Positions 26,932 to 50,132 of a stretch of DNA of 50,346 nucleotides are shown here, one piece after another (position 1 is the first letter of the stretch; the number at the start of each line of letters is the position of its first letter). The stretch comes from Nostoc sp. GT001 (lineage in GTDB: Bacteria > Cyanobacteriota > Cyanobacteriia > Cyanobacteriales > Nostocaceae). The DNA is taken from positions 1,726,432 through 1,776,777 of the forward strand of contig NZ_JAUDRJ010000003.1 in assembly GCF_030382115.1 (NCBI RefSeq). The letters run 5' to 3'. The position numbers and the translations under genes were made by a program. The notes beneath the pieces are model-generated. The model was not told the DNA's origin, made no database searches, and saw only the letters and a program-made list of their open reading frames with translations.

Positions 26932-27218
26932 TACTCATCCCCATAAAATGCTGCAATTACTTCTTCTGGAGTCTCATCAAAATCATCAGCAATCTTAACT
27001 TTCCCCTGCCAAAAACCCGCAACTCTTGGCTTTAAAGCATCATTTAAATCAGCTTTAGTAACTGTAGGCTCAGGTTGAGTCAAAGGCAAAACTTTTGCCA
27101 AAGGGACACCCTGATGAGTTAGGGTAACTTCAACATGATTTTGGATATCTGACAATAAATCAGCTAAATTCTCAGATAAGTCAGCAATATCAAAAGTTTT
27201 TGGTGACATTTTGCTCAT
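26931..27218 (-). CDS. Phd/YefM-like antitoxin of the PIN toxin
   Basis: The 95-aa antitoxin has a Phd-type N-terminal fold (KTFDIADLSENLADLLSDI, VEVTLTHQGVPLAKVLPL) and an acidic C-terminal part (DDFDETPEEVIAAFYGDE) that would bind the toxin. The stop overlaps the vapC start, giving a translationally coupled pair. It lies between the DUF3883 stump and the DUF1156 gene and may stabilise the cargo. Confidence 0.88.
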   Translation of the reverse strand: MSKMSPKTFDIADLSENLADLLSDIQNHVEVTLTHQGVPLAKVLPLTQPEPTVTKADLNDALKPRVAGFWQGKVKIADDFDETPEEVIAAFYGDE

Positions 27219-27347
27219 GTCCTACTGATTACCACCATTATAACCAATAAAATCTACCCTCACTGAAGATGAAATCGAATAGTCTTGGAGGATGAAGAAT
27301 GATTAAAAATATCAAGAATGTAATCATTAACACGGTAAATAATTATT

Positions 27348-30643: not shown

Positions 30644-30791
30644 ATTGTTTAATCGTTTTATTTGTTGATTAGACTAGGAATCAAGTTTTTTGAAAGTCAG
30701 GAATCAAATTGTTCAACCGTTATTTCTTCTTTGTCAGGAAATAACAAGCATTTGATGCGCTAAAATTGTTCAACCGAATTATTTGTCTACA
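30644..30791 (-). promoter_or_regulatory. Far transposon end: three spaced TnsB-type sites
   Basis: Three inverted copies of the 19-bp site occur: ATTGTTTAATCGTTTTATT (30644-30662), ATTGTTCAACCGTTATTTC (30708-30726) and ATTGTTCAACCGAATTATT (30765-30783). The end reads TTTGTCTACA. The wide spacing resembles the Tn7 L end, in contrast to the compact 20-bp phasing at the glmS side. Confidence 0.85.
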
Positions 30792-32336: not shown

Positions 32337-32976
32337 ATAATAGCTACAGCAGTAAACAAAGACCGGAATTTTGGGCTACTACAGTTTACAAACAATGAGG
32401 AGATTAAGATGAAAGCGATCGCATCAGGATAGATTTAATTTCTGGAGTCCCTTACTGTTCTCCTTGGCAATAATTTCGATATTAGAAAGCCTTCTTGGAA
32501 TAACTCGCGTACATCAGCGAGATTTTAAGAGTTCTAGTCCGATTATTAGGCTTAAGGATAACTCAACTGTGAGAACCAGGGAAAATCCAGTTGGAGTTGA
32601 TCGTGTTTTCGTAGATGCTTTCAATACTAAACACTTGCGAGTAGCCTTTCTGATACGACAATTGGCTGGTAGTTTAGGTGAGATATGATTTGAACAAAAG
32701 TCTTGGTTACTTGGTTGAAATTACCCAAAGTATATTGTAATATTGCAATCCATTGAATTTTAAAAAAGCTAAGTATAAATAGGGTGCGTTACGTCGGAGT
32801 CCGTAATGCACCAAAGCTTTCGGACGGTGCGTAACGCAACGCTTTCACACCCTGCGTATATTTCCAAAATCAAACATGAGTCCTATAGTAAAGCAGGCTA
32901 ATTTGGCAAAGTGGTTATGTAAAGATGTTAAGTTATAAAAGCCTTATTGATATATGGAGTTAAAAAAGGTTCTTGG
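32337..32976 (+). other. Upstream region of the GNAT-TGT operon
   Basis: This 640-bp stretch has no convincing gene; a 74-codon frame at 32464 lacks family resemblance. A dispersed repeat with hairpin arms (GGTGCGTTACG, then GGTGCGTAACGCAACGC) lies at about 32780-32860. The operon promoter must lie in the last 100 bp, or upstream of this repeat. Confidence 0.5.
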
Positions 32977-34365
32977 GTGAAGTACGTGCAGATTAAATCC
33001 TTAGAAACTACAGTAACATTTGCAACAGAAAAAGACTTACCTTTTGTCAAGGCTCTCGCAGATGCCCATCGCCATGAGATAGGTTTTGTTAATAGAGCTA
33101 CTTTGGCTGAGGCAATAGCTCATAAGGAAATTTTATGTACGTCTCATGGCTTCTTGCATTTTCATCACAGGCGTGACAGAATATCCACTTTATACCATCT
33201 TTCTGTTTCCCCATCTCACCGCCGACAAGGGGTAGGTTTTAAACTAATTAGAGCATGGGAAGAATATAGCAGAACATCCGGTATAAAAACTTTACGCCTC
33301 AAATGTCCATTAGATTTGGAAGCTAATGGTTTTTATTGCCGAATGGGCTTTAGTCGAGTCAATATTGAACCAGGAGTAAAACGCAGTTTAGTTGTGTGGC
33401 ACAAAAAATTAGTGTCTGCAACACCATTAAGTTCTCAATTTGTTGCATCTTTTAGTGCGGGTGGTTCCCAATTGCAGCGCCTTTTTGAACTATGGCAATC
33501 AGGCGGTGATTTGGAACGTAATCCCTTTGCTTACGTTATTTATTCACCTATCACTTGCCCACCATCTACTACCAAATTTTTGCAGCAACAAAAAGATGTA
33601 GCAAACATTAAAAGTGTCTGGTTAGATTGTGGTGCTTATCAAGTGCAGCAAGGTAAACGAACTTATGATGAACTTCTTGCCTTTTTAGATAAATTTTATA
33701 AAGAAAATCAGTGGGCAGATGGGTATGTATTACCTGACATTGTACCTTTAAGCACAGATAATGATGAGATTGTAGAGTACAAAGTCCGTGACACACTCTA
33801 CCATTGTGAGGCATTTTATAGCAAAATGCCTAATTATGTACAAGAGCGTGCGATCGCTCCCGTACAGGGACGTACTATCAAGCAAATCAATCGTTGTATC
33901 GAAACCTATGCGAGACTTGGTATTCGCAGAATTGGCTTTGGTTCTTGGGGAACATCAGGCCCTAACGGAAGTGTCAATATGATATCTTTTGAGAGCTTGG
34001 CATTATTTAAAAAAGTCTGTGATATTGCTAGAGAACATGGAATGCTTGTTCACTGTTTTGGGATTGGTGGGCCAAACAGCTATAATCGCCTCCGCAGACA
34101 TAACTTAATTCCCGATACTCTCGATAGCACAACTTGGTGGAAAGCTGGAGGCTTTGGCAGTATCTTTTTCCCTAATAAATCTCAAATTCAAATTACAGTG
34201 AGACGTAGTTTTGAAACCACGAAAGCGGGTGTAGAAAAGCTCAAAAGAGATACTCACCACTCCTGTTATTTTTGTGAAAGTATTGAGCAATTAAGAACTA
34301 GCCGAAATCATCGAATTATGCACAACCTAGTCGCTTGGTTGGATACATTGGAGCGTGATTTATGA
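32977..34365 (+). CDS. GNAT acetyltransferase fused to a DpdA/TGT-like transglycosylase
   Basis: With GTG 32977 as start (AAGG 7 bp before it) the protein has 462 aa; a TTG at 32947 would add ten. Residues here count from the TTG start. The N-terminal GNAT domain (about 20-150) has the acetyl-CoA loop SPSHRRQGVG (88-97). The C-terminal part resembles tRNA-guanine transglycosylases and DpdA: WLDCGAYQVQ (D227), VLPDIV (261-266), APVQGRT (304-310), GFGSWGT (330-336) and TLDSTTWW, with D393 as a candidate nucleophile. SCYFCES (C440, C443) would be part of the zinc site. DpdA swaps guanine in DNA for a 7-deazaguanine. The stop overlaps the next ATG. No preQ0 synthesis genes lie nearby. Confidence 0.8.
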   Translation: MKYVQIKSLETTVTFATEKDLPFVKALADAHRHEIGFVNRATLAEAIAHKEILCTSHGFLHFHHRRDRISTLYHLSVSPSHRRQGVGFKLIRAWEEYSRTSGIKTLRLKCPLDLEANGFYCRMGFSRVNIEPGVKRSLVVWHKKLVSATPLSSQFVASFSAGGSQLQRLFELWQSGGDLERNPFAYVIYSPITCPPSTTKFLQQQKDVANIKSVWLDCGAYQVQQGKRTYDELLAFLDKFYKENQWADGYVLPDIVPLSTDNDEIVEYKVRDTLYHCEAFYSKMPNYVQERAIAPVQGRTIKQINRCIETYARLGIRRIGFGSWGTSGPNGSVNMISFESLALFKKVCDIAREHGMLVHCFGIGGPNSYNRLRRHNLIPDTLDSTTWWKAGGFGSIFFPNKSQIQITVRRSFETTKAGVEKLKRDTHHSCYFCESIEQLRTSRNHRIMHNLVAWLDTLERDL

Positions 34366-35195
34366 ACAAAAGATTGACTCTCCACATACAGCAAAATACC
34401 ACTTTGTCAAGAGTGGCGGTTATTCTGGAAAATTTTTCTATTCAACAAACAGATATTGACCAGTTAGCGGTTCTCTGTAAACTTGGAGCTACTGTTTTAC
34501 AAAAAAATGTTTTTCCCTTTCTGCGTAACCTTTCTATTCTCGACAAAAAGAATCCATCTAGTTTAACTTCACTAGGTAAAGTAGCGGCTGATATTCAACA
34601 ATCAAACCCAGCTTTACTAGGCGATTTTTTACACTTAGTAATTTATCAGCTACATCTTTTCGACCCTGATAAAAGGTTCTCCTGGGCTTATGCAACTGTC
34701 GTACAACAACTGTGGTTACGAAAAGAAGTTATTTTATCACCTGCTGAAAAAAAGTCCATAGTGGGAGAAGTGATTGAAAAAGCTGCTGTGAACTTTGAAC
34801 TTACTGCCAGTGAAATAGCATTCAGTGATAGCAGTATCACTGGTGTCTTGAACTGGTTACATTCTCTATCACCCTGTGTAATTAAATCAGAAGGAAAATC
34901 CGAATACTTCAGTCGTCGCTACTTCTGCGCTGCTCCTATTTTTATAATGGCGGTAGACGCGATTTACAAACAACGGCAACGAACCTATGGAACTAAGATT
35001 TTCTTGCGCGAAGACATTAAAGACGCTATCTGTCAAATGCTTTTGCTAGATCCGAGTGGGTTAGACGGCACTCTAGATAATGCAAAATGCACCTATGATT
35101 ATGACCAAGGAGAGTTCTTTGACTGTGGGTATGAAGGGGGTTATGGACAGTGGATTATGTTAAATAAATCCCCAGAGTGGACTCAATTAATTTAA
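34362..35195 (+). CDS. Helical protein of unknown function in the modification operon
   Basis: The 277-aa soluble protein is mostly helical, with LGKVAADIQQSNPALLGDFLHLV near residues 71-93 and WAYATVVQQLWLRKEVILSP near 108-127, and a Cys/Tyr-rich end (CTYDYDQGEFFDCGYEGGYG). The arrangement is loosely like DUF4007-type or DpdG-type proteins of DNA-modification islands, but I cannot confirm this. ATGA overlap with the GNAT-TGT gene implies translational coupling and joint function. Confidence 0.6.
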   Translation: MNKRLTLHIQQNTTLSRVAVILENFSIQQTDIDQLAVLCKLGATVLQKNVFPFLRNLSILDKKNPSSLTSLGKVAADIQQSNPALLGDFLHLVIYQLHLFDPDKRFSWAYATVVQQLWLRKEVILSPAEKKSIVGEVIEKAAVNFELTASEIAFSDSSITGVLNWLHSLSPCVIKSEGKSEYFSRRYFCAAPIFIMAVDAIYKQRQRTYGTKIFLREDIKDAICQMLLLDPSGLDGTLDNAKCTYDYDQGEFFDCGYEGGYGQWIMLNKSPEWTQLI

Positions 35196-35222
35196 AAATT
35201 TATATTCCCTTCAAACCTATAT

Positions 35223-38200
35223 ATGAAACGACTATTTATGAAGAAATTATTAGAGCAACTAGAATCAATTCAAGCAATTGTAGATACCGTTAGTCCATCT
35301 CAGATTGAAAGCGAACTTGAAAGTATAGCCCATAATTATGAATTATATGCTATCAGCTACGACCCACTCGAACAAGTTAAAACACTTCGAGATCGTTTAA
35401 TTGATGAAATTGGTAAGGGAAAGCCTGTCAATGGCTACCTAAGTGCTGACTATGGCTATGGTAAAACAGCAACCCTGATTTATTTGTGGTCTGAGTGCAG
35501 GCAGAATACAATTGTAGCTGTGCCACCGTTCAAATTTAAAGAATTGGGCGACTTAATGGTTGCCACTTATGCCTGGATTAAGGCAAGTTTAGAACAATCC
35601 TCCCCTAGTCTTGTTCCTAAAATTGAGGCACTATATTCTCAGTACGGTCTAAAGTCTCAACAAGAACAAGCCGCAGAAATAGCCCGCAAGTACAGAGTCT
35701 CTGAAGACAAAGCTCTGAAAATTGTTCAAGAATTAAAAACTGACACCACCAATACTGATAGTGTTCTAAATTTTTGGCAGGAGAGTGTTTCTATTTTGCG
35801 GGAAGCAGGTTTTAAGGGGTTAGCAATATTTGCTGACGAATGTCAAGAATTCCTGCGGACTGAAGAGGGATCTAGCGTTCGTATCCAGATTTTGAGCGAT
35901 TTAGTCAAAGGAATGCGGGCTTTAGGTTCTACACCTGTCGCACTCATTCTCGGAATGCCTACCACGCCCACTGAATCAGCGATTGAAGAACAGGCTGGTG
36001 ATATTATCCACCGGATGCAGGAGCAGAAAGTATCGCTGCGATTAACTGACGCTTATAAATCTGATTTTCCGGGTAAGCTTTGGGATTTTTTGTGTGAGAA
36101 GTTTTTGCCAGAAGATAAGTCTCAGGGAAACGAGTTAGTAGATTTAGCAACCCTTGAAAGTTTGGGACAGTTGTGCGAGCGCAAAGACCTGGGAAACGGC
36201 CCTCGCACCGTTATCGAAGTCTTTAAACGCATAGTTACTTTTGCTCAAGAAAAAGGGAAGCCGTATACTCCTCTGGATTTGATTGAGGATTATCTTGAGG
36301 GACGAGTGCAGTTATACGGTACGCAGCAGCACAAAATTAGTGATGCTATTAACAAAGTAGAGTCAGTGATTTCCTTTAAAAAACATCCAAAAGGACGAGA
36401 AGTAATTAAGCTTCTTGCTAGTTTTCCATCGGGTGTGAACGCAAGTATCGCTGAGAGCTTCAGACTGTTAAAGAGTTTAAAAAAGCTGGCAGAAGACGAC
36501 GATTTTTATGGTTCGTACATTGTACAACCAACCGAACGTAGCTTTGCCTTAGTTGCTCTTCTTCAAACAACTCCTCCTACAGTCATTGATAAAATTCTTG
36601 GGTCATTTCGTCGTAGCTGGTTTGGAGAGTGGAATGATGCTCAAAAAGAAAAGATAGCAACAACGATTTTCTGCCAGGAAATTCTCCCCTTACTTTTCCC
36701 AGTTTCTCGCTCTGGTCAGAAAGCCAATTGGAATTGGCGCTATAAAGGTGAATGGCAAGAGGATAGATTTGGATTTTATAATTTTTTGACTAGCTCTCCT
36801 GAGAGATATAATTTAGAGTTTCCCAACCGTTCTGTCGTTATTAGTGTTGGTGGTGAAGACTCTGACTTGATGAGATTTACTCCGCCGGAAGAAACTCACT
36901 TAGACTGGCGATTTTACTTGAGGTATGACCAGAATGCAGCTAATGTTCCACAAAGATTAACTGCGATCGCGGGGACAGGTCAAGTAGATTTCCACCTTCA
37001 GCTTGCTCGAAGCGAAAGGGAATATCCGACAGCTTTCGGCTTACTCCGCAAAATCATGGTTGCCGAACAGTGTTCAGCTTGTACGTTGCTTAATTTATCT
37101 AATTATATTCAAAACTGGCTCTCAAGCCATCCTGAAGTCAGCGCATCAGATAGAGATAGATTAGAACATCACCGTCAGGAGTGCCACGCCTTAGCTCTGC
37201 GGCTGCTATTCCCATCAATTGCATCAGAAACCTGGAAAATTCTCGGTTTAGAGGCAGTCAATGGTACGGAAACAAAACTGATAGAATCTGTGTTTTATCA
37301 AAAGTGTAAAACTCTATTTCCGAACTATCAATCTTTCTACACAAATCTGCGTCCAGCACTTCTCAAGTATAAGGTAGCGCTTGAGAAAATTTCGTTGTCT
37401 GTTCGCCGGGGTCGTCAGTTTTATCAAGCCTCAAAGGAAGATTTTGAAAATTTATTTGAAGTTGCGGGTTCTGGTCTGCCTAGCCTTTTGGCAATTTTGA
37501 AACAGCACAGTTTGATTAGTGAATCCAAAATTGCTAGTAAGAAAACAGAAAATTCTCAAGTTCAATTTACTGTTCATCCTCTGGAATCCTTGATTCAAAA
37601 CCAACTCAAATCAAAAGAGGCAGTTGAAAATGTACAGGGTCAGGAAACTCAGATATGGAAAGAGGTCAAAAAACTTGGCTATCTTCAAGAAGAGTTTGAG
37701 GAAGCACTGGAATGGTTGCAACGTCGTCGCTATATAGAATGGGAGCGACCAAGGGGAATCATTCGCACTTCTGTGGCAGAACTAGACCTTAATGATTTGA
37801 AGGGTCAGTTAAATGAACTTCGCACTCATGTTTCTTCATTACTAGAAATTTTTGATGAGAAGCTTTTAGACGAGGTTCTTAGCGACCTCAATGAAGCAGA
37901 AACAACTCTTTCTTCAGTAGCAACTTCACCACAGGGGTTTAAGACAACTGAAGAGAAACTAACTTTATCTAAAGACTTTGATAGCGCAGCGTTAGCGAGT
38001 ATTCGAGCGTCTGGCGTAGAGACTGCACAGAAGTTCGCGCAACACAAGGATGATGTGGTTCTTGATGGAGTTTATAGAACAATACAAAACCTAAGCGATC
38101 GCCTGGAAATATTTCGCCGGGATAAACGTTATACTCTGCAAAAAGAACTAGGTGAAATGACACGAAAATTAGAAGATTTAACGCTCGAATTGAAGGCTTC

Positions 38201-39245
38201 TAAAGTTAGTCAGGCAATTCTTACTATGAGTGGTTTAGAAGATTGTTTTAATGACCATCGAAAGACTTTAGAAAAACAATTTTTACAGCTAGATCAAGAT
38301 TGCCATAATATAGCCAGTTCGGTTGCCTTAGAAGAAGCAGACATTCTGAAATTACATCATCAACTCAATCACTGTAAGCAGTTTTTGCAAACTAACGAAA
38401 GCACTCAAAAAAAACTTATTGATTTAGTAGCTGGTCTCGAACAGTGGCGAATTATTTTGACACGTGCTGAGAATTTACGAAACAGTTTGAGTAACGATTC
38501 AGAACATCTAGTGCGGTATAACGATGAGTTTGTTGACCGAGTGGTAGAGCATTTTAGCCGTCATGGGGTAAAAAGTTTTAGAGAATACGATCTGCTGCAA
38601 AAACCCTTGGCTGAAATTGAAGTTATTATTAAAGGTGAGAGGCGATCGCGTCGAGATAGTTTCGAGCAACGACTAACTCAATACGAAGATTTATTGTGTC
38701 TAATTGCTCCTAATGAACGTTATTTGAAAGACAGATGCAAATTTGATGATGAAGACCGTGAAGGGTCTTATGAAGCCCTAAGACAAGTTTTTTGGGAAAA
38801 ACTACTCCAGCAGTGCAAAAATTTGATTTTAGACTGGGAGCAACTAGAAAGAGATTTATACTTTATTGCCCGAAACCGCGAACAAGATGTGACTCCTCTT
38901 TTGAATCAGGTCAGCAATTTAAAAGCACAGTTACTATCAAAAATAGACTTGTGTAAAGAAGCACTCACAGACTTTGAAAACCTTGAAGCCCAGGTTAACG
39001 AAATCAAATCTATTTTTGATAAATGTCTGGGTTCGCGTGAGGAATTGAGCAAAATTGAGCTTCCAAAAAATGAAAATGTTCTAGAAGAAGAAAGACAGTT
39101 TTTAAATGTCATTAGCACAGTAGAAACTGGTCTTACAATTAGCCAGGTTTGTCAAAGTTTACCAGATAATCAGGATGTATGGAAACTTTTAAAGACTTTG
39201 TATAAAAAGGGTTACTTAGAGATTACGCTCCGCCAACGAGATTAA
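35223..39245 (+). CDS. Large P-loop ATPase with C-terminal coiled coils
   Basis: The 1340-aa protein has a P-loop (SADYGYGKTATLIYLW, K81 T82) and a Walker B AIFADE (201-206). A sensor-like segment follows (ALILGMPTTPTESAI, about 238-252). After mixed helical domains, residues about 860-1290 are long coiled coils (LNELRTHVSSLLEIFDEKLL, then repeated Leu/Glu/Lys heptads). The end (GLTISQVCQSLPDNQDVWKLLKTLYKKGYLEI) is a winged-helix-like segment. Large ATPases like this (BrxC/PglY, DpdH) are core parts of DNA-modification-linked defence. I cannot assign it to one family. ATG 35238 is an alternative start. It appears intact. Confidence 0.75.
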   Translation: MKRLFMKKLLEQLESIQAIVDTVSPSQIESELESIAHNYELYAISYDPLEQVKTLRDRLIDEIGKGKPVNGYLSADYGYGKTATLIYLWSECRQNTIVAVPPFKFKELGDLMVATYAWIKASLEQSSPSLVPKIEALYSQYGLKSQQEQAAEIARKYRVSEDKALKIVQELKTDTTNTDSVLNFWQESVSILREAGFKGLAIFADECQEFLRTEEGSSVRIQILSDLVKGMRALGSTPVALILGMPTTPTESAIEEQAGDIIHRMQEQKVSLRLTDAYKSDFPGKLWDFLCEKFLPEDKSQGNELVDLATLESLGQLCERKDLGNGPRTVIEVFKRIVTFAQEKGKPYTPLDLIEDYLEGRVQLYGTQQHKISDAINKVESVISFKKHPKGREVIKLLASFPSGVNASIAESFRLLKSLKKLAEDDDFYGSYIVQPTERSFALVALLQTTPPTVIDKILGSFRRSWFGEWNDAQKEKIATTIFCQEILPLLFPVSRSGQKANWNWRYKGEWQEDRFGFYNFLTSSPERYNLEFPNRSVVISVGGEDSDLMRFTPPEETHLDWRFYLRYDQNAANVPQRLTAIAGTGQVDFHLQLARSEREYPTAFGLLRKIMVAEQCSACTLLNLSNYIQNWLSSHPEVSASDRDRLEHHRQECHALALRLLFPSIASETWKILGLEAVNGTETKLIESVFYQKCKTLFPNYQSFYTNLRPALLKYKVALEKISLSVRRGRQFYQASKEDFENLFEVAGSGLPSLLAILKQHSLISESKIASKKTENSQVQFTVHPLESLIQNQLKSKEAVENVQGQETQIWKEVKKLGYLQEEFEEALEWLQRRRYIEWERPRGIIRTSVAELDLNDLKGQLNELRTHVSSLLEIFDEKLLDEVLSDLNEAETTLSSVATSPQGFKTTEEKLTLSKDFDSAALASIRASGVETAQKFAQHKDDVVLDGVYRTIQNLSDRLEIFRRDKRYTLQKELGEMTRKLEDLTLELKASKVSQAILTMSGLEDCFNDHRKTLEKQFLQLDQDCHNIASSVALEEADILKLHHQLNHCKQFLQTNESTQKKLIDLVAGLEQWRIILTRAENLRNSLSNDSEHLVRYNDEFVDRVVEHFSRHGVKSFREYDLLQKPLAEIEVIIKGERRSRRDSFEQRLTQYEDLLCLIAPNERYLKDRCKFDDEDREGSYEALRQVFWEKLLQQCKNLILDWEQLERDLYFIARNREQDVTPLLNQVSNLKAQLLSKIDLCKEALTDFENLEAQVNEIKSIFDKCLGSREELSKIELPKNENVLEEERQFLNVISTVETGLTISQVCQSLPDNQDVWKLLKTLYKKGYLEITLRQRD

Positions 39246-39363
39246 TTTTTACTTTGAAAGCGAGGGTATTTTTGAATAACAGCAACCAAACTAGCGTAGC
39301 ACTCCTATTAACTGATAAGCAATAAAATAGAAGAAACTTTCTACTCATACGCTTAAAGCTACT

Positions 39364-40230
39364 ATGTCCAAGAGAATTCCAACTTTTCATTTACCCAAGG
39401 TGTATCCAGAGGATATGAGGATACTTGTAAAGGGTCTTGTAGCTAATGAAGGTCAGACCTTAAAGACTGCTTTGTATTGGCTAGAAGGTAAGCTAGTTAC
39501 TCACAACGTAAATAAAGTAAAACCAGCAGGTACGCCCATGTCTGCTACAACTATAAAAAACTATTTAGCAGGTTTTTACGTTCTCGATTTATATAAAGCA
39601 GATGGTCATATCTACTCAAAAACAAACACTGAAAAGACCAGACCATCGATTTCTGTTCAGTCAACAATCCAAATTATCAATCCCTTAGAAAATCTTGCTC
39701 AAAATTCGCCCTCTCTTGAAACATTTAATGAAAATTTAACTCAGATTTGTTCTCAGTATTCGCAACTTGTTAAAGATTACACTAACGCTAGGTTTCAACT
39801 TCATGAAAAACATCAATTATCTGAAAATCCAAAACCAGCACTACTTCAAAAATTATTAATACAACACTGTGGCTACAGCTATGTTGGTAATCCAGGGGTG
39901 GGTTATCTGGAGTTGTTTTACAGAGACAAAATAGAAATTGACAATTACTTAAACCTCTTAGACTTCATTTTAAATAATTACCGCGATATTGCCCAGAAAA
40001 GTCTGGGTTTAGTTCCAGTTGCTCAGATTCGTGATAGAGTTGTGAAGCAAGTATCAGATTATACGGAAGAAGACCTTAAAAAACATTTGATTCAGTTGCA
40101 ATTAACTCGCCGTATCGAATTAAGAACAACTAAATCTCAACTTGCCCGTAATATGGGAATTGATTTAATTGACATTCGAGGAGTTAAGTATGGATTTATT
40201 AAGATTTTAGAACCTGCTATTGCTGTTTGA
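39364..40230 (+). CDS. Winged-helix-like protein of unknown function
   Basis: The 288-aa protein starts MSKRIPTFHLPKVYPEDMRI. An N-terminal HTH-like part (GTPMSATTIKNYLAGFYVLDLY) is followed by a helical centre and a C-terminal segment (VPVAQIRDRVVKQVSDYTEEDLKKHLIQLQL, then RRIELRTTKSQ) that looks like a second winged helix. This would suit a DNA-binding or bridging role beside the two ATPases. No family is recognised. It overlaps or nearly touches the next gene (ATG 40233, 2 bp after the stop). Confidence 0.6.
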   Translation: MSKRIPTFHLPKVYPEDMRILVKGLVANEGQTLKTALYWLEGKLVTHNVNKVKPAGTPMSATTIKNYLAGFYVLDLYKADGHIYSKTNTEKTRPSISVQSTIQIINPLENLAQNSPSLETFNENLTQICSQYSQLVKDYTNARFQLHEKHQLSENPKPALLQKLLIQHCGYSYVGNPGVGYLELFYRDKIEIDNYLNLLDFILNNYRDIAQKSLGLVPVAQIRDRVVKQVSDYTEEDLKKHLIQLQLTRRIELRTTKSQLARNMGIDLIDIRGVKYGFIKILEPAIAV

Positions 40231-40232
40231 CT

Positions 40233-41501
40233 ATGCCCTATCAAGACGTTAATGCAAAATCTATAGCACCTGCCCAAAATCCTTATGTTGTTTCTGGATC
40301 TGCTGCATCAGTAGTCTCTCAGGACGACACCTCAAAACTGGTTCGTACAAAATTTATTAATAACCTTCTGGATGAAGTTAAACAATCCATTAAAATCAGA
40401 AGACCTATCAAGTTATTTTTTGTAGGAGAGTATGGATATGGGAAAACAACTTTACTCAATTTGATAGCTAAAGAATTTAATGATAATGGCGGGGTGTGCG
40501 TTCCCATTAAGTTTCAAGAAATCGTGACACCGATTGCAGCATCAAGCCAGCAAGATAAGCACTTTGAAAGTCTTTTGGGAGCAATTCTACTGAAGTTGTA
40601 CAATGTCTTGCTTCACGAAGGTCTTTTAAGCAAATCAGATAAAGTATTATTTGAAGAAACAGAGTTGATTAATTTATTTGAGATTTTTTTTGAATTCCTG
40701 AAGCGGACTCAAAAATATTATGTGCTAATTGCTTTTGATGAAGTTGAGGCACTATTTTCTAACCTCAGTATAGAAATTTCATATTTTATGAGTTTCTTGC
40801 ACAGTTTGTCTGAGAAGTTTTCACTAAGACCAGGTTGGGCATTGTGTGTAAGTGTGACCGAAGAATACTATAGTCAAATTATTTCAGAAGCTCGCCAGCT
40901 ACAAGAAGCACGGTTTAATTTTAAAATCCTCAAGCCTTTGAATCCACAAGAAGTAAAAGAGTATATAGAAACCAAAAATAGTTCTGTAACTTTGAAGAAT
41001 GATAATAAGCTTTATCCTTTTGAAGAGGAAGTTATTGACTTTGTTGCAGTAGTTTCTGGAGGTGTTCCCCGATTTGTAGAAACGATATGTCAGTTGCTTT
41101 GGGCTGAAGCGGAACCATCCCAAACATCAGTTGGCCTTGAAACGGCTCGAAGAATTTTCAGTAATAGTTATCGAGTGTATGCCGAGGCATATTTTTCAGA
41201 GTTACGAATTAGTAATGAGTTATCTGAAGAAGCAGAGGCTTTTTTAAATCTTCTATTTTTTAGTGGTGGAAGAAGACAGTCAATACAAGACCTTTTGATT
41301 CTGTATGATTCTTGTTCTATTTCTTATTTTTATAGACTAAGTGAACAACAAGCTAAGTATAGATTAGACAAAGCGAGTTCACAACTCAGGAGTAAGTTAG
41401 ATTTTGAGCAATATATCGAAGTTTTTGGTCAAAGACCTTATATGTATACTCTTACAAACTTAGTATATAAAGATATCTTCAAATTTCGGGAAAGACTGTA
41501 A
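40233..41501 (+). CDS. AAA/ORC-like ATPase
   Basis: The 422-aa protein has an intact Walker A, GEYGYGKTTLLN (near residue 67), and Walker B, VLIAFDEVEALF (near 166). ALCVSVTEEYY is a sensor-like strand, and a C-terminal lid and winged-helix region follows. This arrangement is typical of ORC/Cdc6- or STAND-like ATPases. TTG 40227 inside the previous stop is an alternative start; ATG 40233 is preferred. Its Walker A (EYGYGKT) closely resembles that of the 1340-aa protein (DYGYGKT), so the two may work as a pair. Confidence 0.78.
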   Translation: MPYQDVNAKSIAPAQNPYVVSGSAASVVSQDDTSKLVRTKFINNLLDEVKQSIKIRRPIKLFFVGEYGYGKTTLLNLIAKEFNDNGGVCVPIKFQEIVTPIAASSQQDKHFESLLGAILLKLYNVLLHEGLLSKSDKVLFEETELINLFEIFFEFLKRTQKYYVLIAFDEVEALFSNLSIEISYFMSFLHSLSEKFSLRPGWALCVSVTEEYYSQIISEARQLQEARFNFKILKPLNPQEVKEYIETKNSSVTLKNDNKLYPFEEEVIDFVAVVSGGVPRFVETICQLLWAEAEPSQTSVGLETARRIFSNSYRVYAEAYFSELRISNELSEEAEAFLNLLFFSGGRRQSIQDLLILYDSCSISYFYRLSEQQAKYRLDKASSQLRSKLDFEQYIEVFGQRPYMYTLTNLVYKDIFKFRERL

Positions 41502-41513
41502 AATAAACGCTTT

Positions 41514-42629
41514 ATGTCAGCAGAAAACCTGGATCGTAATTCTCCATCCATTAAGCCTAAGATTATTGCTGAGGAAATCAAGCAACTACAAAGGAAATTA
41601 AGTGAAATTGTAGAACCATACCAAAAACCGATTTCTTCAATTTTACCAGAAGAACGGAGGGTAGAAACTTCTTTGTTATTTGACGATATAGAGATTGAGG
41701 CTTGCTATGATAGGTTTTCTAGCTGGGAAGGTTCTTTGTCCAAGAAAAAAATTCGCGATTGGCTGAATCAGTTTGAAACAATTCTAGAGCAAAACATAGC
41801 CTATTTACTCCTGAGTAAGTTACAATTTTTTTCCATAACAAATATTGAATCAGCTACTCGAAGTTTACAGCAGAATTTACTTGATTTACTTCTAAAAAAA
41901 GATAATCTTTGGCAAGCTTGTCATGATGATCCTAAAGTTGCTTTAAAAGATAATGAAGCTGAGTTTAAAAAATGGTTGAGAAATAAAATTATTAGATATG
42001 CTGAATTACCTTATGATGCAGCAGAAAGTCAGTACAGGCTTTGGGGAATTTATGAAAGGTCTGCTTTGACTGCAACTAGCGTTCCTGATGGTAAAAAAAT
42101 CAGACCTCTGAGAGAGTATTTTCAAGCAGGTACAGGAAGCCATGAAACATCAGTGTTTGTTTTTATGGATTATACTAACGCTTCCGGTGAGCAACTCAGT
42201 AAATCCCTTAGAAAAATTAATCAATTACTCTCTAAATATCCAGAATGGCAGAAAAGTTTATTTGTTTTTATGTATGTAGTTGAGTCTGAAGCATTTCGGA
42301 TTGAAGATATAGAATTACGCCCCCAAAATAGCCAAACACTTGCTTATAACGCTATGCTTCATTATAAAAGTACAGAAATTATGAGAATCCTTGCGGATAA
42401 TCAAATCACTGAAACTGAGTATGATGATTTCATAGAAAAATATTGCCTGCGTGCTTCTGAAAAGAGTACTGTTGGATATCGAAATTCTGGTGCTTTAACT
42501 TGTCATCACTATAATTGTCCCAACAACACATTACCTTTTTTTAATAAACAGAGGGAAAACTGGGAAGCGCTTTTTAGAAACAGCCAAACGCCAAGCGCCA
42601 CCCGTTATAAGCAACTAAGGCTTTTCTAA
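41514..42629 (+). CDS. Phosphoribosyltransferase-like protein (PRTase-CE-like)
   Basis: The 371-aa protein has a mid-to-late segment VFVFMDYTNASGEQLSKSL (residues 214-232) that resembles the PRPP-binding loop of phosphoribosyltransferases, and a late motif CHHYNCPNNTLPFFN (330-344) like the CPNNTLP block of PRTase-CE proteins found in conflict systems. The second acidic residue of the usual DD pair is Tyr here. It starts 12 bp after the ATPase gene and ends 7 bp before the convergent helicase gene. With a TGT-like gene in the same operon, chemistry on a nucleobase or ribose is a reasonable guess. Confidence 0.5.
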   Translation: MSAENLDRNSPSIKPKIIAEEIKQLQRKLSEIVEPYQKPISSILPEERRVETSLLFDDIEIEACYDRFSSWEGSLSKKKIRDWLNQFETILEQNIAYLLLSKLQFFSITNIESATRSLQQNLLDLLLKKDNLWQACHDDPKVALKDNEAEFKKWLRNKIIRYAELPYDAAESQYRLWGIYERSALTATSVPDGKKIRPLREYFQAGTGSHETSVFVFMDYTNASGEQLSKSLRKINQLLSKYPEWQKSLFVFMYVVESEAFRIEDIELRPQNSQTLAYNAMLHYKSTEIMRILADNQITETEYDDFIEKYCLRASEKSTVGYRNSGALTCHHYNCPNNTLPFFNKQRENWEALFRNSQTPSATRYKQLRLF

Positions 42630-42636
42630 GCAAAAA

Positions 42637-45600
42637 CTACGCATAATCCGCAGGGCGACGCAAAACCTTAAACGGATTGGCAGATATTACGTCATAACCC
42701 GTATATTGTTGCCTTGCCATTTCCTCAGCCGCTATCCACTCAGGATGCTCATCAGTCCACAATGGATGTCGCAAAATCAAGACCTTTGCTAAACGCCCAC
42801 TGCGAACGTAACCACGTAAACTGCCAAACTGTATATGTGAAGTGTACCCCAGACGTGCCAAGGTAGCAGGGATTGGTGCTTTTGCTCCTATAATTAGATT
42901 CCTCCAAGGATTGGGACAGCCATTCCAAGATGATTCAAGGTCGATCGCACTGGCACTTGATGACGCTATCCGCGCCATATCTAACGCTAACCGCCAGTCT
43001 AAAAGACCATGATAGGACAAATTGTAAAAATCTCGCAGGCACAAATTGCAAGAGGTATCGCACTCGCTTTCATGCTCTGGAGACATCCACTTTGCGGCGA
43101 TACTATCGAGATGCATTGGTTCTGCCATCGCCATCAATCTGCTCAACTGGGCAGCATCATTAAAAAACTGGCAATATCCTGCACCATTTTCTAGCTTGTC
43201 ACATAAAAATGCTTGACCGATAGGTTGTCCCGTCACTTCATCTGGCAAAACACGCAACCCCGCTTCCAACTCCAAGGCATCCACATCCAACAGCGCACCC
43301 GCCGCAATTCTCAGCCAAAACGCAAAAGAATACCAACCGGCACGCCCCTCAACCTTCGTGGGATCGGCAAACACCCCAGAAGGCCACCGTTCAATATTCA
43401 CCAGCAAAATATCTGTTACCCGCCGCGAGATCAACGCCACACGGTAAGCAGCACCAGAGACGGAAACATAACCCTCCTCGCCAACAGCATAAGCCCCATT
43501 CTTCAATTCCCCGTAAATTTTGGCGGCTTGGAAATCAAATCCTCCCTTACCTTCATGATCATTCACTGAGAGAATTTGGTCAGTTAGCGCCACCACCGAA
43601 CAGTTGTCCACACTGGCAGAGGCAACTCCTCTGGCATCCACACTCAAAGAAGGACGAGTCGATCGCGGTTGCCACTCGAACTGTCCATCAAAATCTTGCG
43701 GTTCCAGATCGCTAAAAAAGCCCTTCGGTTCGCGGACATCCAGAGGTATGAGAGAGGGTTCGGAGTATTGACAAACTGGACAGGTTTGCTTTTCAGGTTC
43801 CCGTTTTCCTAATGCAGGTTGTGGCATAGCAGGCAGGGACACAACCGCCTGACAATGTTCGCACACTCCGATGGGGTTGGTGTTTCCTTGAGGCAAAGGC
43901 GGGTAAAAACCATTTTCTGAACTGACAACCTTCCCTGCTGGCCTCAGCACCACCACACCAACTGCCGTGTGAACTGCCTTATCCTTAACTGTTTCCGAAC
44001 CCGGTGCAAATTGACTGAGAGCAATATCCAAATTACGATCAACAAGACCATCTTCTGGGGGCCAGGGGAAAGACTGGCGAGGCCAGCGCGTGTAAAGCAC
44101 TCGCACACGAGTCGGGAAACCAAACATTGGCAGCAAACCAGCATTGGCAAGGCGTTCACTCAAAGCATCCTGCGAGTAAGATTCATTGCTAGCAATCTCT
44201 CTGATTTCCTCAATCAGGCGATCGCGCAAATAGCTTCGCATTTCCTCTTGAAATTTCTCACCAGCCACACCCGCCCAAGGGGTTTCAATACTGAGAGATT
44301 CCATAATCGAATTGATAACCTCTTCATTCCTAGCATCTTGCAGCCACTCTCGAATTTCCGGCTCATAAGTTGCCCATTCTTCAGCCGTGCCAAATTCCCC
44401 ATGTACATTATCAGTTTGACTGCCTTGACTCAAAATTGGTGTGTCGGTAAAAGCTTGGCGCAATACCTCTTTAATTAACACCCGTTTGTAGATTGTTTGG
44501 CTTCTCATATCCACATAGGGAGGCGGGGGCGGATCGCCTGTCATGCTTTCAGGACGTTGGTAGTAAAAATCATCGTGGCTTCTCCCCCGGCAAAATGTCA
44601 CCGCCAGAGAAACCCCACTAGCGCGACGACCAGCCCGCCCAACTCGCTGCTGGTAATTAAAGCGTCGCGGCGGCATATTTGCCATCATTACCGCATTGAG
44701 AGCGCCGATATCAACCCCTGCTTCCATAGTGGTTGTCACGCTTAACAAATCGACCCCGTAAATCTTCTTTTTGGCAAGTTCATTAGCAATGAAAACTTCT
44801 TGAAACCAACGCTGTCTTTTCGGTCGTTCCGCTTTATCGGTTTGTCCTGTCAGTTCTTCACAATTCATGCGAAACAGCTTGGCATCTGGTCTATCTGTTA
44901 ATTCCGTGTAATAGTCGAAATGTGAAGTCAATTGTGCCGATGCAACAGGTTGTAAAGATTCTGGGTCTATGACCACATTGTGTAAATAAAACGCATTGGT
45001 TTGCGGACACCTGTAGACTCCCTGACTCAGTTCTGGAGGGACTAGCGTTAATTTATCTGGGTTTAAAATCAGTCCATTAGACGAAGAAATTCCTGCCCCT
45101 GACTGTAACAATTGCTGTTGCACTTCAACGTCAGTCACACCCCAATTTCGTATTCCTGCAAGATAATCGAGCGAGTAACGCCGAAAGTGGTTTTCTGTGC
45201 CTTGATAAATCCAAGAGCAATATTTATATAAACTCCTAACGCCTAACTGACGGATAACAGCTTCTGTGGCATTAATTAAAGCTAGTGAAGCATTTTTGTC
45301 AGTTTGGTAACTCACCCAACCTTGACCCAAGGCTTCCAGCGTCCTGGCAATATGGGGGAATAAAGCATACATTAGCTCTGCCATCAACAGAGCGTCCAAG
45401 CGAGCAATATGCTGTCCTTGTTCTGCATCAGCGTTGACTAAAGGCAAGGGAACAGCGTTACTCCAGTCGTAGCAATTAAACCAAAAATCCCAGAATTTAT
45501 CTGCGGTTTTGTATCGCTTGGCTTTGAATTCTGAGCCACCGTGACAGATACCTATTTCTAGTAATTGATCGCGAATTGTGCCGCGTAAATTTGCTAAGGG

Positions 45601-47086
45601 AATTCGCCCTGGATAACTTTCTAATAACTTTACCCAGTCTGCATGAGCTTGCCGATTATTAGGTGGCGCTCCCATGAACCACATCAGTGCTTCAGTCATC
45701 AGATGTGCATTGGCAGCAGCAAATCTTTTCTGTGCGATCGCATCTTCTGGTTGGGAGGGTTTTGTAACTTCAGCATAAAGAAGCGAATTTAACGTTTGTA
45801 ACTGGGGAAGATTAGCAGGGTTAAAGGTAAACATTATCCGCAGGTAGGAAACCAAATCACCCCAATATTGCCGAAACGATTGAATCATAGTGAGGCGTAC
45901 CATATCTCGATAATGATCTCGTTCCATTCCCGCAGCCAGTTTTGCCGCATCTTGGCGACTGTCAGAAAAAATCACAAGTTTTCGGGATGAAGATGTTCCT
46001 ATCCCTTCATCGGTCATTTCTCGGAATAAAGCTCCCGCCAAGACTTGACAGGCTTTTTGAAACCCTGTCCGATGACTTCTTAAAGGTGTTCTGAATTTCT
46101 TGCGCTTTCCGTAGTCAGCATCGCACCGAGGACATTTGCTTGGCATGGAAGGCTCTGTTGCAGCTTTTTGTCCGGTGGAGGGTATTGAAGGCGGTACTGC
46201 TGCTTTTTTTCCGGCTTTTTTTTCGTGAACTTGATACAGCCATCCTGGAACCTCTTTGTCTAAGTTGAGCGGTACAATTTTTTGGGAAAGTAAACCTGTT
46301 GTTTTATCTAAATTCAGTGCATCCAAAACCTCTTCACGTTCTTCCTGTATCTTTTGCAAAATTTTACGGAGGCGATCGCGGCTTTGTTTTGTTTCTCTGC
46401 CGGAAACTGGAGTTAAGCCAGTATAGCGACCAAAAGTGATATAATTTCCTTGACGCTGTTGTTCCAACCACCTGTGAACGTCATTGTCATCTAATGCTAT
46501 TCGCAGTCGTCGCAGTTGGTCTTCTACTAAAGCATTCAGAGGATAAAGAATAATCGCTCTCAAAGCGTGGGGACGAGTTGTGTGCGCCCACTGCGAAACT
46601 CTGATATCGTTATTATCATCTTTAGAATTATTCCACCACTGGCGGTTAGCAGATGGTGAGCCTGAAGTAGTCCAAGTTAACGACTCTCGTGCGAGTTGGG
46701 CAAAAAGTGGCAGCAAGAAACACTCAGTTTTTCCCGAACCTGTGCTTAGTGGTGACGACAATATCTTTACGGTTGACTAAAACTTCATCTAGACTTTGCC
46801 TTTGGTGTCGATACAGTTCGATATTGGAGGGAAAGAGCTTTTGCCCTAATGATGACAAACCACTATATTCTGATGGTAGCCGCTTTGTTGCAGCCGCTAG
46901 ATTCAGACCGGAAGAGGGATAGATGGGTACGGTTTCGATTAAGGGCGGTTGACTTAAAACTCCGGTTTGATTGAGAACCCGAAAGCGTTCTTCGCCTAAA
47001 ACTTGCGATCGCAAAGGAAAAGCACTTTTGATGTAAAGTCGATACAGGCGATCGAGCCTTTGATAAGCTCCTAGTAGGTCATGCAC
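42637..47086 (-). pseudogene. DUF1998-type helicase, frameshifted in Walker A and lacking DEAH/SAT
   Basis: The frame starts at GTG 47086, overlapping the previous stop, and reads FPSNIELYRHQRQSLDEVLV (Q-motif like) to VVTT. At about 46745-46748 it shifts: the first frame gives KHRFGKN-stop, the other STGSGKTECFLLPL, the rest of Walker A. Motif Ia (ILYPLNALVEDQLRRLR) is present. Then, within residues 140-170 of the second frame, sequence passes straight to the zinc segment (CPRCDADYGKRK) and SRKLVIFSDSRQDAAKLAAG. DEAH and SAT motifs are missing, so some hundreds of residues appear lost. Motifs V and VI (TTTMEAGVDIGALNAV, QRVGRAGRR) and the DUF1998 cysteines (CDTSCNLCLRDFYN) remain. It is probably inactive. 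Confidence 0.78.
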
Positions 47087-48410
47087 AGCTAAAACCCTCG
47101 TCGCAGTTTATATAAAGTTTTTTTGTCAATTTTTCTGCTAAATTTGGAGCAATATTTTCATAAATAAGCCATAGATTCTGTTCGGTTTTGTGATAGATTG
47201 GCACAAATCCAGAAGCTAGCACTAAAGCACGTTCGTATAATTCAGGCCATCGTTGAGAAAACGGAATTGCTAAACGTGCGGTTGTAGAATCGTAATGGGC
47301 GATAAGCAAGCGATCGCTGTAGTGCAGAGCGAGAAATCTTAACCCATACCAATCTCCTTGTAGCCAAGTATCGGTTTCTGCTTCATAAAAAAGGGTCATA
47401 CGGGAAAAATCGCTGCCTTCTCTATTCCACATTTGGTACATTCCAGTTTCGTTCTGGAAAGTGCGCTCAACAAAATCATTGCCGTCAAATCGCATCCATT
47501 CGTAAAGAGATGGCACTATACCCGGTACGCTTCTAAGACTCTGCTGCCAAATTCTCATATCCGGTAAGATGTCAGCCAGTCGGCTCGATACATCACCCGT
47601 GTTAATAATAGGAAACTGCTCTGTAATTATATTACGTTCGTTTACTTTCAGACGAATACAAGGTGGTGCATTTCCTGTGGGTTGGGAAAGGGGTATTATC
47701 TCTGCATATTTTTCTAACTGGGTGAGCCAACTGATGCAACGCTGACCGCATAAAATAAATTCTTGTGAGTTTAACTGAGAGTTAATTTTCACAAGAGTCG
47801 CAGGAGCAGCAGACCATCGTTTACCATCTAATGAAGATTCAACATGACCGAGCAACCTAAGTCGGCGTAAGATGCGTTTAGGTTCTTCAAGTTGCAAGAC
47901 TTCACACCCTTTCTTGAAAGATTCCCAAGTTCCACTACCAAGAGCGGATAGCCAGTAAAGAAGTTGCTCGGATCGACGGGATATATCAATATCAATGAAT
48001 GAATTATTGATAGATGCTGATTCTATTAAGTCAAATGGATGATCGCAGGTTAATTCCTGTACGGGCTGATAGGGAATGTTGTTACTATACTCATAAACAT
48101 CATGAGCGACCCCAACCATAGGTTTTATTTCTTCATAACTAAAGCTGGGATTACCTGGAATAGTAGATTTAAAAAAAGGTAGTTTAAGCAGATTTGATTG
48201 AACTTCCGTTGGTATGTCACCTTTTTGTAAACTTTCAAGCGCCAGAAAAAAGTAAAATGGTTTGCGTGATTTTACCCCTTTTTCCACTCGTAAAAGCGGA
48301 ACGAAATTTCCCAAATTGTGACGTTGAACTTGCTTGGAAATTTGCTCAATAAGTTCTTGTGGATTTCCCCTATAAGAAAAACCTTTATACCAGCGCTGGA
48401 TTTGTGGCAT
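47079..48410 (-). CDS. Unknown protein in the helicase operon
   Basis: The 443-aa soluble protein is upstream of the helicase and overlaps it by 8 bp. It has no membrane span. A central winged-helix-like part (YWLSALGSGTWESFKKGCEV, EEPKRILRRLRLLGHVESS) and C-terminal beta segments are visible. No family is recognised. It may be a loader or specificity partner of the helicase, by position only. Confidence 0.6.
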   Translation of the reverse strand: MPQIQRWYKGFSYRGNPQELIEQISKQVQRHNLGNFVPLLRVEKGVKSRKPFYFFLALESLQKGDIPTEVQSNLLKLPFFKSTIPGNPSFSYEEIKPMVGVAHDVYEYSNNIPYQPVQELTCDHPFDLIESASINNSFIDIDISRRSEQLLYWLSALGSGTWESFKKGCEVLQLEEPKRILRRLRLLGHVESSLDGKRWSAAPATLVKINSQLNSQEFILCGQRCISWLTQLEKYAEIIPLSQPTGNAPPCIRLKVNERNIITEQFPIINTGDVSSRLADILPDMRIWQQSLRSVPGIVPSLYEWMRFDGNDFVERTFQNETGMYQMWNREGSDFSRMTLFYEAETDTWLQGDWYGLRFLALHYSDRLLIAHYDSTTARLAIPFSQRWPELYERALVLASGFVPIYHKTEQNLWLIYENIAPNLAEKLTKKLYINCDEGFSCA

Positions 48411-48428
48411 TATGCACCTGATTTGCTT

Positions 48429-50132
48429 TTACTCTTTTGCAGAAACAGTCTGAATGACGCTGCCACATATATAATTCCCAGAACTAATAGGTGTTATTTC
48501 ATAACGTTGTGGTTTTTCTATACCAAGCCAACTCCAATCGACGATTTTGACCAAACGTTCTGTGGATTCTCCTGCACAAGTTGCCTTGACAACATAGTCT
48601 CCTGAACTTGGTAAATTTACCGAAATTGGCGTATTTGTACTTTGCGATCGCTCAATTATTGATAAATTATCCAATAATCGAGTTATTTGTAACGTCACAG
48701 TGGGATAAAAACCAAAGATGGTAACTTGAGGACTATGACCCTCCAACCATGCGCTCTGCTGCGGAACACGTAACCCCCCTGAAAAGCTAATAGATAAACA
48801 AACATTGGGCTGCAAAGCATCCTTAAGTTCTTGATTGCTAATAAATACTCCATTCCAAGCTAAGGAAATAACCATACACTGGTGAAGCTCTACCCAGTTT
48901 GAATTATTAAATACAGGCTGAGGTTCACCGCTCCACTCTATTAGCCGCTCATCTCGCAAGCGATTGATATCTGGAAGTAGTTCTTTTTTACATAGCAGGA
49001 TAAATTTAGTGCCGAGTGATGGTTGACCCCAAGTTGCATAAACTCCTGTATCTGTATCATCTGGATCGGGAATTAACATCCAAAAATCACGAGAAGGTAA
49101 AACCAGAGAATCAAGGTCAGATTGCAGAATAATTGGGTATTTAGCACCGCGTTCCAATTCACTTAAACTTAGAGGAAATTCTAAGGGTAAATACCAGCCA
49201 GGGCGTTCATCTATTAACCGTTGATCTCTCTTACCATACTGAATTTTTATAGTGTTTAACTCCCATCCCCGCACTTTTTTTGGGTAAGGATAGTAATTAA
49301 CATCACCAAAAAACGGATCTTCTGTGCGATATAAACCAGCAAATATGTTACGACTCCAATTACGTACTCCTGCTTTTACTACTGCTGGCCGTCCTTGTGC
49401 TTGCCACTGCTGGTAAACTTCATGAATAGATTCGGCTACTGCTTCATAGCGTTCCCTGTTATCAGTTAGCAATAGTTTGAGATGTGTAGAGAGTCGCTGC
49501 GCTTCTCGTCTCACACCAGCAAACAGAGTCATAGCATCCCACTGCGCTGTCCATTGTTTCTCATTAAACAGTTGTACAAGTCGGTTTTTATCTGTACGAC
49601 GAAGTAACGATTGAGAAATTGGATAATTAATATAAGTGGTTGGGCCTCCACGACCTCGATGTGCTGAAGGCATGAATCCATTTACCATCAACCAAAGATT
49701 CCAGCCTTCCCATAAGGGTTCTTCTCCTTGTTTACCAAACTTCATACCTGGCGGACGACCATTTTCTGATGTTGGCAAACCTAATACTGCTTTTAGACGC
49801 TTAAAATAGTTCTCTTCTGAGATTTCCTCTTCATCTACCATTTCATTGGCAGCCAGAACCATTGCACCTAAAAAAGCAACTCCTTGCGGTAAGCTGTCTA
49901 AATTACATCCTTGCAATTTAACCAAATCAACTCGTCCTTGTGTGACAACTTTTTCTCTTACGGCTCTACGGAAGTCATCACTCCAATTGCCATCTTCAAT
50001 TTTTTGGTTGAATTTCTGACCAATTTGCTCTAAAATTTCATTGTCAACACTCAGATAAACTCTTTTACCCCGTGGCAAGCCAGTGGTAAAATAAAATATA
50101 AGCGCTTGATTCCACTCTCTGTAATTTGCCAT
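48429..50132 (-). CDS. Unknown protein, first gene of the helicase operon
   Basis: The 567-aa protein starts MANYREWNQALIFYFTTGLP. The N-terminal half is helical and the C-terminal half beta-rich with a Ser/Thr-rich sheet region (VTLQITRLLDNLSIIERS, NLPSSGDYVVKATCAG). The final part resembles an immunoglobulin-like fold. I do not recognise the family. It is 18 bp before the 443-aa gene, so the three minus-strand genes form an operon. Confidence 0.6.
   Translation of the reverse strand: MANYREWNQALIFYFTTGLPRGKRVYLSVDNEILEQIGQKFNQKIEDGNWSDDFRRAVREKVVTQGRVDLVKLQGCNLDSLPQGVAFLGAMVLAANEMVDEEEISEENYFKRLKAVLGLPTSENGRPPGMKFGKQGEEPLWEGWNLWLMVNGFMPSAHRGRGGPTTYINYPISQSLLRRTDKNRLVQLFNEKQWTAQWDAMTLFAGVRREAQRLSTHLKLLLTDNRERYEAVAESIHEVYQQWQAQGRPAVVKAGVRNWSRNIFAGLYRTEDPFFGDVNYYPYPKKVRGWELNTIKIQYGKRDQRLIDERPGWYLPLEFPLSLSELERGAKYPIILQSDLDSLVLPSRDFWMLIPDPDDTDTGVYATWGQPSLGTKFILLCKKELLPDINRLRDERLIEWSGEPQPVFNNSNWVELHQCMVISLAWNGVFISNQELKDALQPNVCLSISFSGGLRVPQQSAWLEGHSPQVTIFGFYPTVTLQITRLLDNLSIIERSQSTNTPISVNLPSSGDYVVKATCAGESTERLVKIVDWSWLGIEKPQRYEITPISSGNYICGSVIQTVSAKE

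Follow-up and report, generated by a model that had tools for sequence, protein, structure and literature searches.

Architecture of the Nostoc locus

We analysed a 50,346-nucleotide stretch of the 7.9 Mb genome of Nostoc sp. GT001 (the window; G000:C3:1726432-1776777), in which the region 32947-50132 carries two gene arms, one starting with a GNAT acetyltransferase fused to a TGT-like enzyme and the other corresponding to the Druantia type IV defence system. All positions are window coordinates, p1-p6 designate the plus-strand proteins in their order, and L and G labels stand for fetched loci and sampled genomes, respectively. The plus arm comprises six open reading frames (ORFs; 32947 or 32977 to 42629) and the minus arm four (42637-50132), two of which are pieces of a single gene. 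The arms are convergent, with seven bases between their stops (42630-42636), in agreement with the six plus-strand and three minus-strand genes recognized in an earlier reading of the same DNA (the original prediction).

The first plus-strand protein (32977..34365) is a GNAT-TGT fusion. Its frame is open from 32947, 32977 being the start of a close relative of 462 aa (P0001). The TGT-like character that the original prediction attributed to it was recovered (PHROG queuine tRNA-ribosyltransferase, 2e-9), together with an N-terminal GNAT domain that had been overlooked (Pfam Acetyltransf_7, 8.9e-10, over the cut-off). In databases, the TGT part has its nearest relative in Nostoc commune NIES-4072 (97%). 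The Pfam TGT family PF01702 was not listed for the window protein itself (32947-34365) and passed its cut-off in family members of L033, L034, L036, L038 and a Haloplanus plasmid (L047). Searched against PDB sequences, the GNAT-TGT profile retrieved acetyltransferases only (24 sequences), and hhalign aligned the family to canonical TGT with a probability of 1.7%, which serves for register only. Residues D227, D264, D393, H438, C440, C443 and H459 are invariant in 66 aligned sequences; from the biochemistry of TGT and the register of that low-probability alignment, we take them to be the catalytic aspartates and zinc ligands of the enzyme. Fusion of the two domains was observed in cyanobacteria, one Binatota and one Armatimonadota bacterium, and adjacent genes elsewhere. 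A phage contig (L045:3953-5243) encodes GNAT and TGT of this family as two adjoining genes within a replication module (clamp, helicase, exonuclease, DNA polymerase); a scan of the phage collection gave four records with matches to the GNAT part only, and a second viral scan led again to L045.

An alignment scan for GNAT-TGT over one genome per species (84,980 species) yielded 22 loci, each gene of which was then profiled. The core gene p2 (34362..35195, plus strand; 277 aa, no family match) follows TGT in 18 of these 22 loci (counting L030, where it lies beside a TGT fragment; the exceptions are L032, L043 and L044, and L045 belongs to another collection). The next gene encodes p3 (35223..39245, plus strand), a P-loop ATPase of 1340 aa, putatively BrxC-like, with a sub-threshold match to BrxC_BrxD (0.0017) and an hhalign probability of 36% (E 3.8e-4) against DUF6079 members; its relative in L047 bears the RefSeq name "BREX system ATP-binding domain-containing". 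The p2-p3 unit duplicates: second copies of p3 lie near the first in L033:11385-20559, L092-L093 and L074, as p2-p3 pairs in L033 and G605.

Three further plus-strand genes separate p3 from the minus arm, namely p4 (39364..40230; 288 aa, no family match), p5 (40227..41501; an AAA/STAND-like ATPase of 424 aa, AAA_16 5.5e-7, below cut-off) and p6 (41514..42629), a PRTase-CE protein (PF24390, 2.9e-21; PADLOC retron PRTase_III-A, 3.9e-19). Both the PRTase-like protein and the two P-loop ATPases with nearly identical Walker A motifs (DYGYGKT in p3, EYGYGKT in p5) had been correctly identified by the original prediction. The p4-p6 genes form an accessory module that we encountered exclusively in association with this system. 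They are located between the arms in five of the nine cyanobacterial Druantia-linked loci (the window, L026, L028, L029 and G197), in L027 a part of p6 is visible where the stretch ends, and p5 reached the threshold in 5 of 373 cyanobacterial genomes, with strong matches only in G000 and G197, the two GNAT-TGT genomes. Since L023, L025 and L046 have no p4-p6 between their arms, we rejected the initial view of nine genes forming one unit: these three lie outside the conserved core. The retron-type PRTase kinship invites the guess that they are a second effector.

The minus arm is Druantia type IV, with DruE (42637..47086), DruL (47079..48410; PADLOC DruL4, 1.6e-17) and DruF (48429..50132; DruF2 1e-18, DruF4 5.7e-18) present together in one operon according to the PADLOC models. 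As stated in PMC8565338, type IV is defined by DruE and DruF with DruL and without DruM and DruG; these last two, partners in type II, had no PADLOC match at E 0.1 among the ten proteins of the region. The protein first labelled a DUF1998 helicase is indeed a helicase (DruE4, 1045.9 bits), without any Pfam DUF1998/MZB match at E 0.1. As had been suspected, its gene is broken. The window DruE is a pseudogene made of two ORFs (46724-47086 and 42637-46761), to which seven intact relatives of 1897-1935 aa align in three pieces. The frame breaks within Walker A, and ~410-450 residues are lost, among them motif II (DELH, residue 331 of the Oscillatoria DruE). DruE is intact in L027, L031, L034, L046 and G197. 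Two Chloroflexota Druantia-linked loci have an extra gene of ~660 aa beyond DruF (L033:7832-9805, L036:7841-9823), with a UvrD-helicase match and a weak NERD nuclease match in the L033 copy.

Joint recurrence of the two arms

Co-occurrence of the arms in other genomes, a check named beforehand in the original prediction, was found in three phyla, with both arms in one locus. Druantia IV genes are encoded in the fetched stretch of 10 of the 22 loci (L023, L025, L026, L027, L028, L029, L031, L033, L034 and L036). Seven others have a HerA arrangement, with a small STAND/AAA protein (y), p3, a PglZ-like protein (z) and HerA in L037-L042, L035 breaking off after y and the first part of p3. Five show neither arm: L024 is truncated by the stretch limits, L030, L032 and L043 are fragments or lie at contig ends, and L044 is a lone TGT. 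Additional Druantia-linked loci were detected on a plasmid of Oscillatoria PCC 7112 (L046) and in G197, G605 and G613. DruF and GNAT-TGT are ~29 kb apart on one contig of G197, with a HerA set also in between, and G605 and G613, both with Druantia IV, are, apart from the centre G395, the only ones of 301 Chloroflexota genomes in which p2 was detected. Including the window, Druantia-linked loci total 15, in Cyanobacteriota, Chloroflexota and Binatota.

Against the cyanobacterial background, DruF matches occur in 22 of 373 genomes and are near full length in 11 (ten in one piece, G119 in two). Full-length GNAT-TGT was present in 2 of 386 cyanobacterial genomes, both with Druantia IV, the 16 others at threshold matching by the GNAT part only. 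The joint recurrence of the arms is more than chance, and the locus is a real, conserved pairing of two known kinds.

We also mapped the partner arms on phylogenetic trees. In the TGT tree (27 rows, with G197, holder of both arms, labelled Druantia), the labels Druantia, HerA and other require 6 changes, compared with a shuffled mean of 10.5 and a value as low in 0 of 200 shuffles, so that exchange of arms was rare. In the DruE tree (23 rows), which was inferred by a quick method and contains several partial rows and two long branches that meet, the TGT label requires 4 changes; shuffling gave 6.8 on average and reached so low a value in 5 of 500 cases. Gain or loss of the TGT arm has therefore occurred on more than one occasion within Druantia IV.

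Relation to known systems and genomic surroundings

The GNAT/TGT/p2/p3 set corresponds to part of BREX-Related Capture (BRC), a system described by Rakesh and Krishnan (NAR January 2026, PMC12839542) as composed of PglZ, DUF6079 (BrxC-like), a STAND NTPase, DUF4007 (BrxA-like), HerA, GNAT and TGT. HerA is present in every BRC system, GNAT and TGT in some of them, occasionally as one fused protein. GNAT (sometimes TGT-fused) and TGT are common to both, as is, putatively, a BrxC-like ATPase (p3). By elimination, p2 fills the place of the BrxA-like DUF4007, a kinship assigned from structures in the BRC paper; profile comparison of p2 with DUF4007 members gave an hhalign probability of 0.3%. The window differs in having Druantia IV in place of HerA, z and y: neither z nor y (PglZ, STAND NTPase) had a window match at E 0.01, and the HerA profile had none in the window, the only HerA nearby being one of 706 aa in a HerA-NurA-methylase set in L002. 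The HerA-type loci fit BRC, with a clear HerA, a z weakly similar to PglZ (8.6e-5, 3.6e-6), a p3 named by RefSeq as a BREX ATP-binding protein and y filling, again by elimination, the place of the STAND NTPase. The BRC paper already proposes marking by GNAT and TGT, with acyl and 7-deazaguanine derivatives as self-markers, and its main text contains neither Druantia, DruE, preQ1 and QueC nor the word stem "cyanobacteri". As the restriction arm is Druantia IV and the GNAT/TGT/p2/p3 set has a counterpart in part of BRC, the system is not wholly new. We found no report of GNAT-TGT paired with Druantia IV in the open full-text literature (subscription papers and supplements lay outside the search), and their coupling is, as far as searched, unreported.

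Other systems share some of these traits. Dpd, described as marking DNA via a TGT homolog (PMC6884629), has in common with the window that homolog and a YprA-family helicase, as well as queC/E/D with the Haloplanus relative. It differs by the GNAT present here and by weak DpdJ matches to DruE only; PADLOC models for DpdA, DpdB and DpdC matched none of the ten proteins at E 0.1, as the original prediction had noted for the last two, and the Haloplanus TGT matched NCBIfam DpdA far below cut-off (1.9e-5). The BREX methyltransferase BrxX/PglX and PglZ had no PADLOC match in the ten proteins, nor did DrmB, DrmC and the methyltransferase of DISARM, for which only weak DrmA cross-matches of DruE appeared. 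BRIGADE combines an ARMADA/Druantia-clade helicase with predicted 7-deazaguanine chemistry, but the survey of YprA helicases reports it from halophilic archaea only and usually with a pair of YprA-like helicases plus PLD nucleases, and the survey text includes no TGT, transglycosylase, acetyltransferase or PRTase (PMC12458937). The window encodes one YprA-family helicase (DruE), and no nuclease family was matched among the ten proteins. Membership in Dpd, BREX, DISARM or BRIGADE was ruled out by these unmatched required components. Druantia IV as published is defined without any marking enzyme, whereas here it accompanies GNAT-TGT, p2 and p3, with a broken DruE. Overall, profile searches against the Dpd, BREX and DISARM families invoked by the original prediction matched none of these systems and assigned the minus genes to Druantia type IV instead. 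The idea of a TGT-containing modify-self, restrict-foreign system equal to no single named one survives, and that of a wholly new system does not.

Downstream of glmS, defence elements are stacked in layers and form a hotspot. At 5941-30800, glmS precedes a CRISPR-associated Tn7-like transposon (type I-B kind), encoding TnsA (7933-8793), a probable TnsB recognized by position (8816-10855, no Pfam match), an ATPase (11031-12095), TniQ (12274-13224), Cas6 (13370-14101), a weakly matched Cas8b (14160-15239) and TnsD (16350-18356). Its cargo includes an Hma defence system (19494-28187), in which HmaC and HmaB are accompanied by no more than a C-terminal piece of HmaA. The element extends over ~7.8-30.8 kb, as judged from TnsB-type repeats of 20 bp, three of them at 7855-7914 and inverted ones at 30644-30662 and 30765-30783 (5 matches against 0.31 expected). 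The island with the two arms therefore lies just outside it, and we discarded the possibility that it is cargo of this element. No target duplication was seen by eye in the bases beside the two putative ends, and a search of the genome for tandem TnsB sites gave no match. To the right of the window (L002:6119-17206) are HerA, NurA, a DNA methylase, a GmrSD-type gene and the TnsA-TnsB fusion of a second Tn7-like element. A HerA-type GNAT-TGT system likewise sits directly after glmS in a Desulfovirgula MAG (metagenome-assembled genome; L040:7272-20503). Three Chloroflexota HerA-type loci encode upstream a large protein with repeated RNA polymerase alpha-CTD domains, sigma-70 region 4 and HARE-HTH (L035:244-3195 and L038:7725-9968 by Pfam, L037:584-2665 by profile).

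A putative base-exchange mark and its alternatives

We consider it moderately probable that the locus is a composite modification-restriction system, in which TGT, GNAT and p2 mark self DNA and Druantia IV attacks unmarked DNA. In this proposal, preQ0 would be reduced to preQ1, and the queuosine-pathway base used for insertion would be preQ0 or, more likely, preQ1. The TGT domain would swap guanine in the cell's own DNA for this 7-deazaguanine, p2 would supply DNA binding and site choice, and the GNAT domain may then acylate the aminomethyl group of the inserted base. DNA without the mark would be attacked by the DruE helicase with DruF and DruL. The BrxC-like p3 would probably aid sensing or restriction rather than marking, and p4-p6 would represent an accessory module between the arms. 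With DruE broken, the window locus is therefore expected to mark without restricting. GNAT, TGT and p2 are intact in all 15 Druantia-linked loci, and p3 is defective in three of them (split in L023, perhaps by a sequencing error, truncated in L025 and not seen in L027). Together with the broken DruE, this is the order in which the genes should decay if self-protection depends on the marking enzymes but not on p3. The composite reading is also favoured by the joint recurrence of the arms, by the replication-module setting of GNAT and TGT on the phage contig L045 and by the precedent of Dpd.

Several genomic observations bear on the supply of the base. On the Haloplanus sp. HW8-1 plasmid NZ_CP098519.1 (L047:12983-25823), queC, queE and a queD-like gene are divergent from TGT-p2-y-p3-z-HerA-GNAT, and the gene next to GNAT belongs to the QueF family (best NCBIfam match preQ1 synthase, 81.9 bits for a cut-off of 86.9); QueF had no match in any of four archaeal control genomes. 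This Haloplanus protein contains ESKSLK, presumably the NADPH motif of the reductase. QueF is reported to reduce preQ0 with NADPH and a related QueF-like enzyme to add ammonia (PMC5485725), the latter activity being also possible for the Haloplanus protein. QueC was over cut-off in all nine sampled cyanobacterial genomes with the system. In 15 of 18 module-bearing genomes or records we detected PF01702 matches as strong as those of canonical TGT (E 1e-124 or better), which makes salvage of a 7-deazaguanine base a possible source. Formylated preQ1 occurs in phage DNA. Acylation of a DNA base by an enzyme of the GNAT superfamily also has a precedent, since Mom is described as acylating adenine in DNA (PMC7824862).

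A mark of plain dPreQ0, with the GNAT acetylating a protein or having a regulatory role, is a somewhat unlikely alternative, although the BRC authors themselves suggest that modification may be limited to dPreQ0 (PMC12839542) and Desulfovirgula has QueC without QueF. The fusion or adjacency of GNAT and TGT and the QueF-family gene right after the Haloplanus GNAT point instead to an amine-bearing base. The specific version of the composite system in which the self-mark is an acylated 7-aminomethyl-7-deazaguanine (e.g., N-acetyl-preQ1) in cellular DNA, whose absence is read by Druantia IV, is likewise tentative and, on present evidence, unlikely. To our knowledge, this DNA base is not known from cells, and it would be the first self/non-self signal proposed for type IV Druantia.

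It is less likely still that the island simply gathers two independent defence systems by a defence-island effect, its plus strand encoding a reduced set of BRC type and its minus strand Druantia IV. GNAT-TGT matches were absent from 9 of the 11 cyanobacterial genomes with near-full-length DruF, and TGT, p2 and p3 were not seen in the neighbourhoods of eight of these nine (all except G119), the stretches of G091, G010 and G332 reaching or nearing contig ends. Druantia IV can therefore work without TGT; in cyanobacteria TGT accompanies Druantia IV, but Druantia IV does without TGT. The seven loci with GNAT-TGT-p2-p3 and HerA instead of Druantia, the 4 label changes in the DruE tree and the variable orientation of the arms (which converge in most cyanobacteria and diverge in L027, Binatota and Chloroflexota) also favour independence. 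It is opposed by the recurrence of the same pair in three deeply diverged phyla, with Druantia IV in 10 of 22 TGT-seeded loci versus 11 of 373 background genomes, and by the presence of Druantia in all cyanobacterial GNAT-TGT loci with a long enough view, except L024, cut by the stretch. Finally, that TGT acts during infection on tRNA, as its homologs do in the queuosine and archaeosine pathways (PMC6884629), or on other RNA, without any DNA marking, is highly improbable, given that the hosts already have a canonical-type TGT (the 15 of 18 genomes or records) and that its partners act on DNA or belong to DNA defence (DruE helicase, HerA, BrxC-like ATPase).

Together with the Druantia IV systems that do without TGT, other points weigh against the composite modification-restriction system. 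That DNA and not RNA is the substrate of the TGT domain is something that we infer. Over the 18 module-bearing genomes or records, QueC was over cut-off in 11 and QueF in 9, the misses being draft Chloroflexota, Binatota and Bacillota genomes and the Oscillatoria plasmid taken alone, plus G390 for QueF; the draft genomes with such gaps would require salvage of the base. Desulfovirgula has QueC and lacks QueF. The QueF match of the Nostoc host itself holds one in-frame stop, and no QueC was found on the 41-kb phage contig L045. The decay comparison is thin, as only 5 of the 15 loci show a complete, undamaged DruE; in the window it is broken, and in nine loci it extends past the stretch edge. 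In Druantia III, sensing is assigned to DruH, and DruE targets ssDNA-containing replication intermediates (as reported in PMC13192584), so that Druantia does not necessarily read a mark.

A 2026 review presents Druantia as marked by methylation, with unknown restriction mechanisms (PMC12904381). Type IV as defined lacks a methyltransferase, so that the nature of any mark in it is a question that the link with base exchange addresses. A named cyanobacterial strain with an intact locus is available in Oscillatoria nigro-viridis PCC 7112 (plasmid pOSC7112.01). If the composite modification-restriction system is real, one marking module would serve two unrelated restriction arms, Druantia and HerA/PglZ, and 7-deazaguanine marking of cellular DNA would extend beyond Dpd, possibly with a new DNA base.

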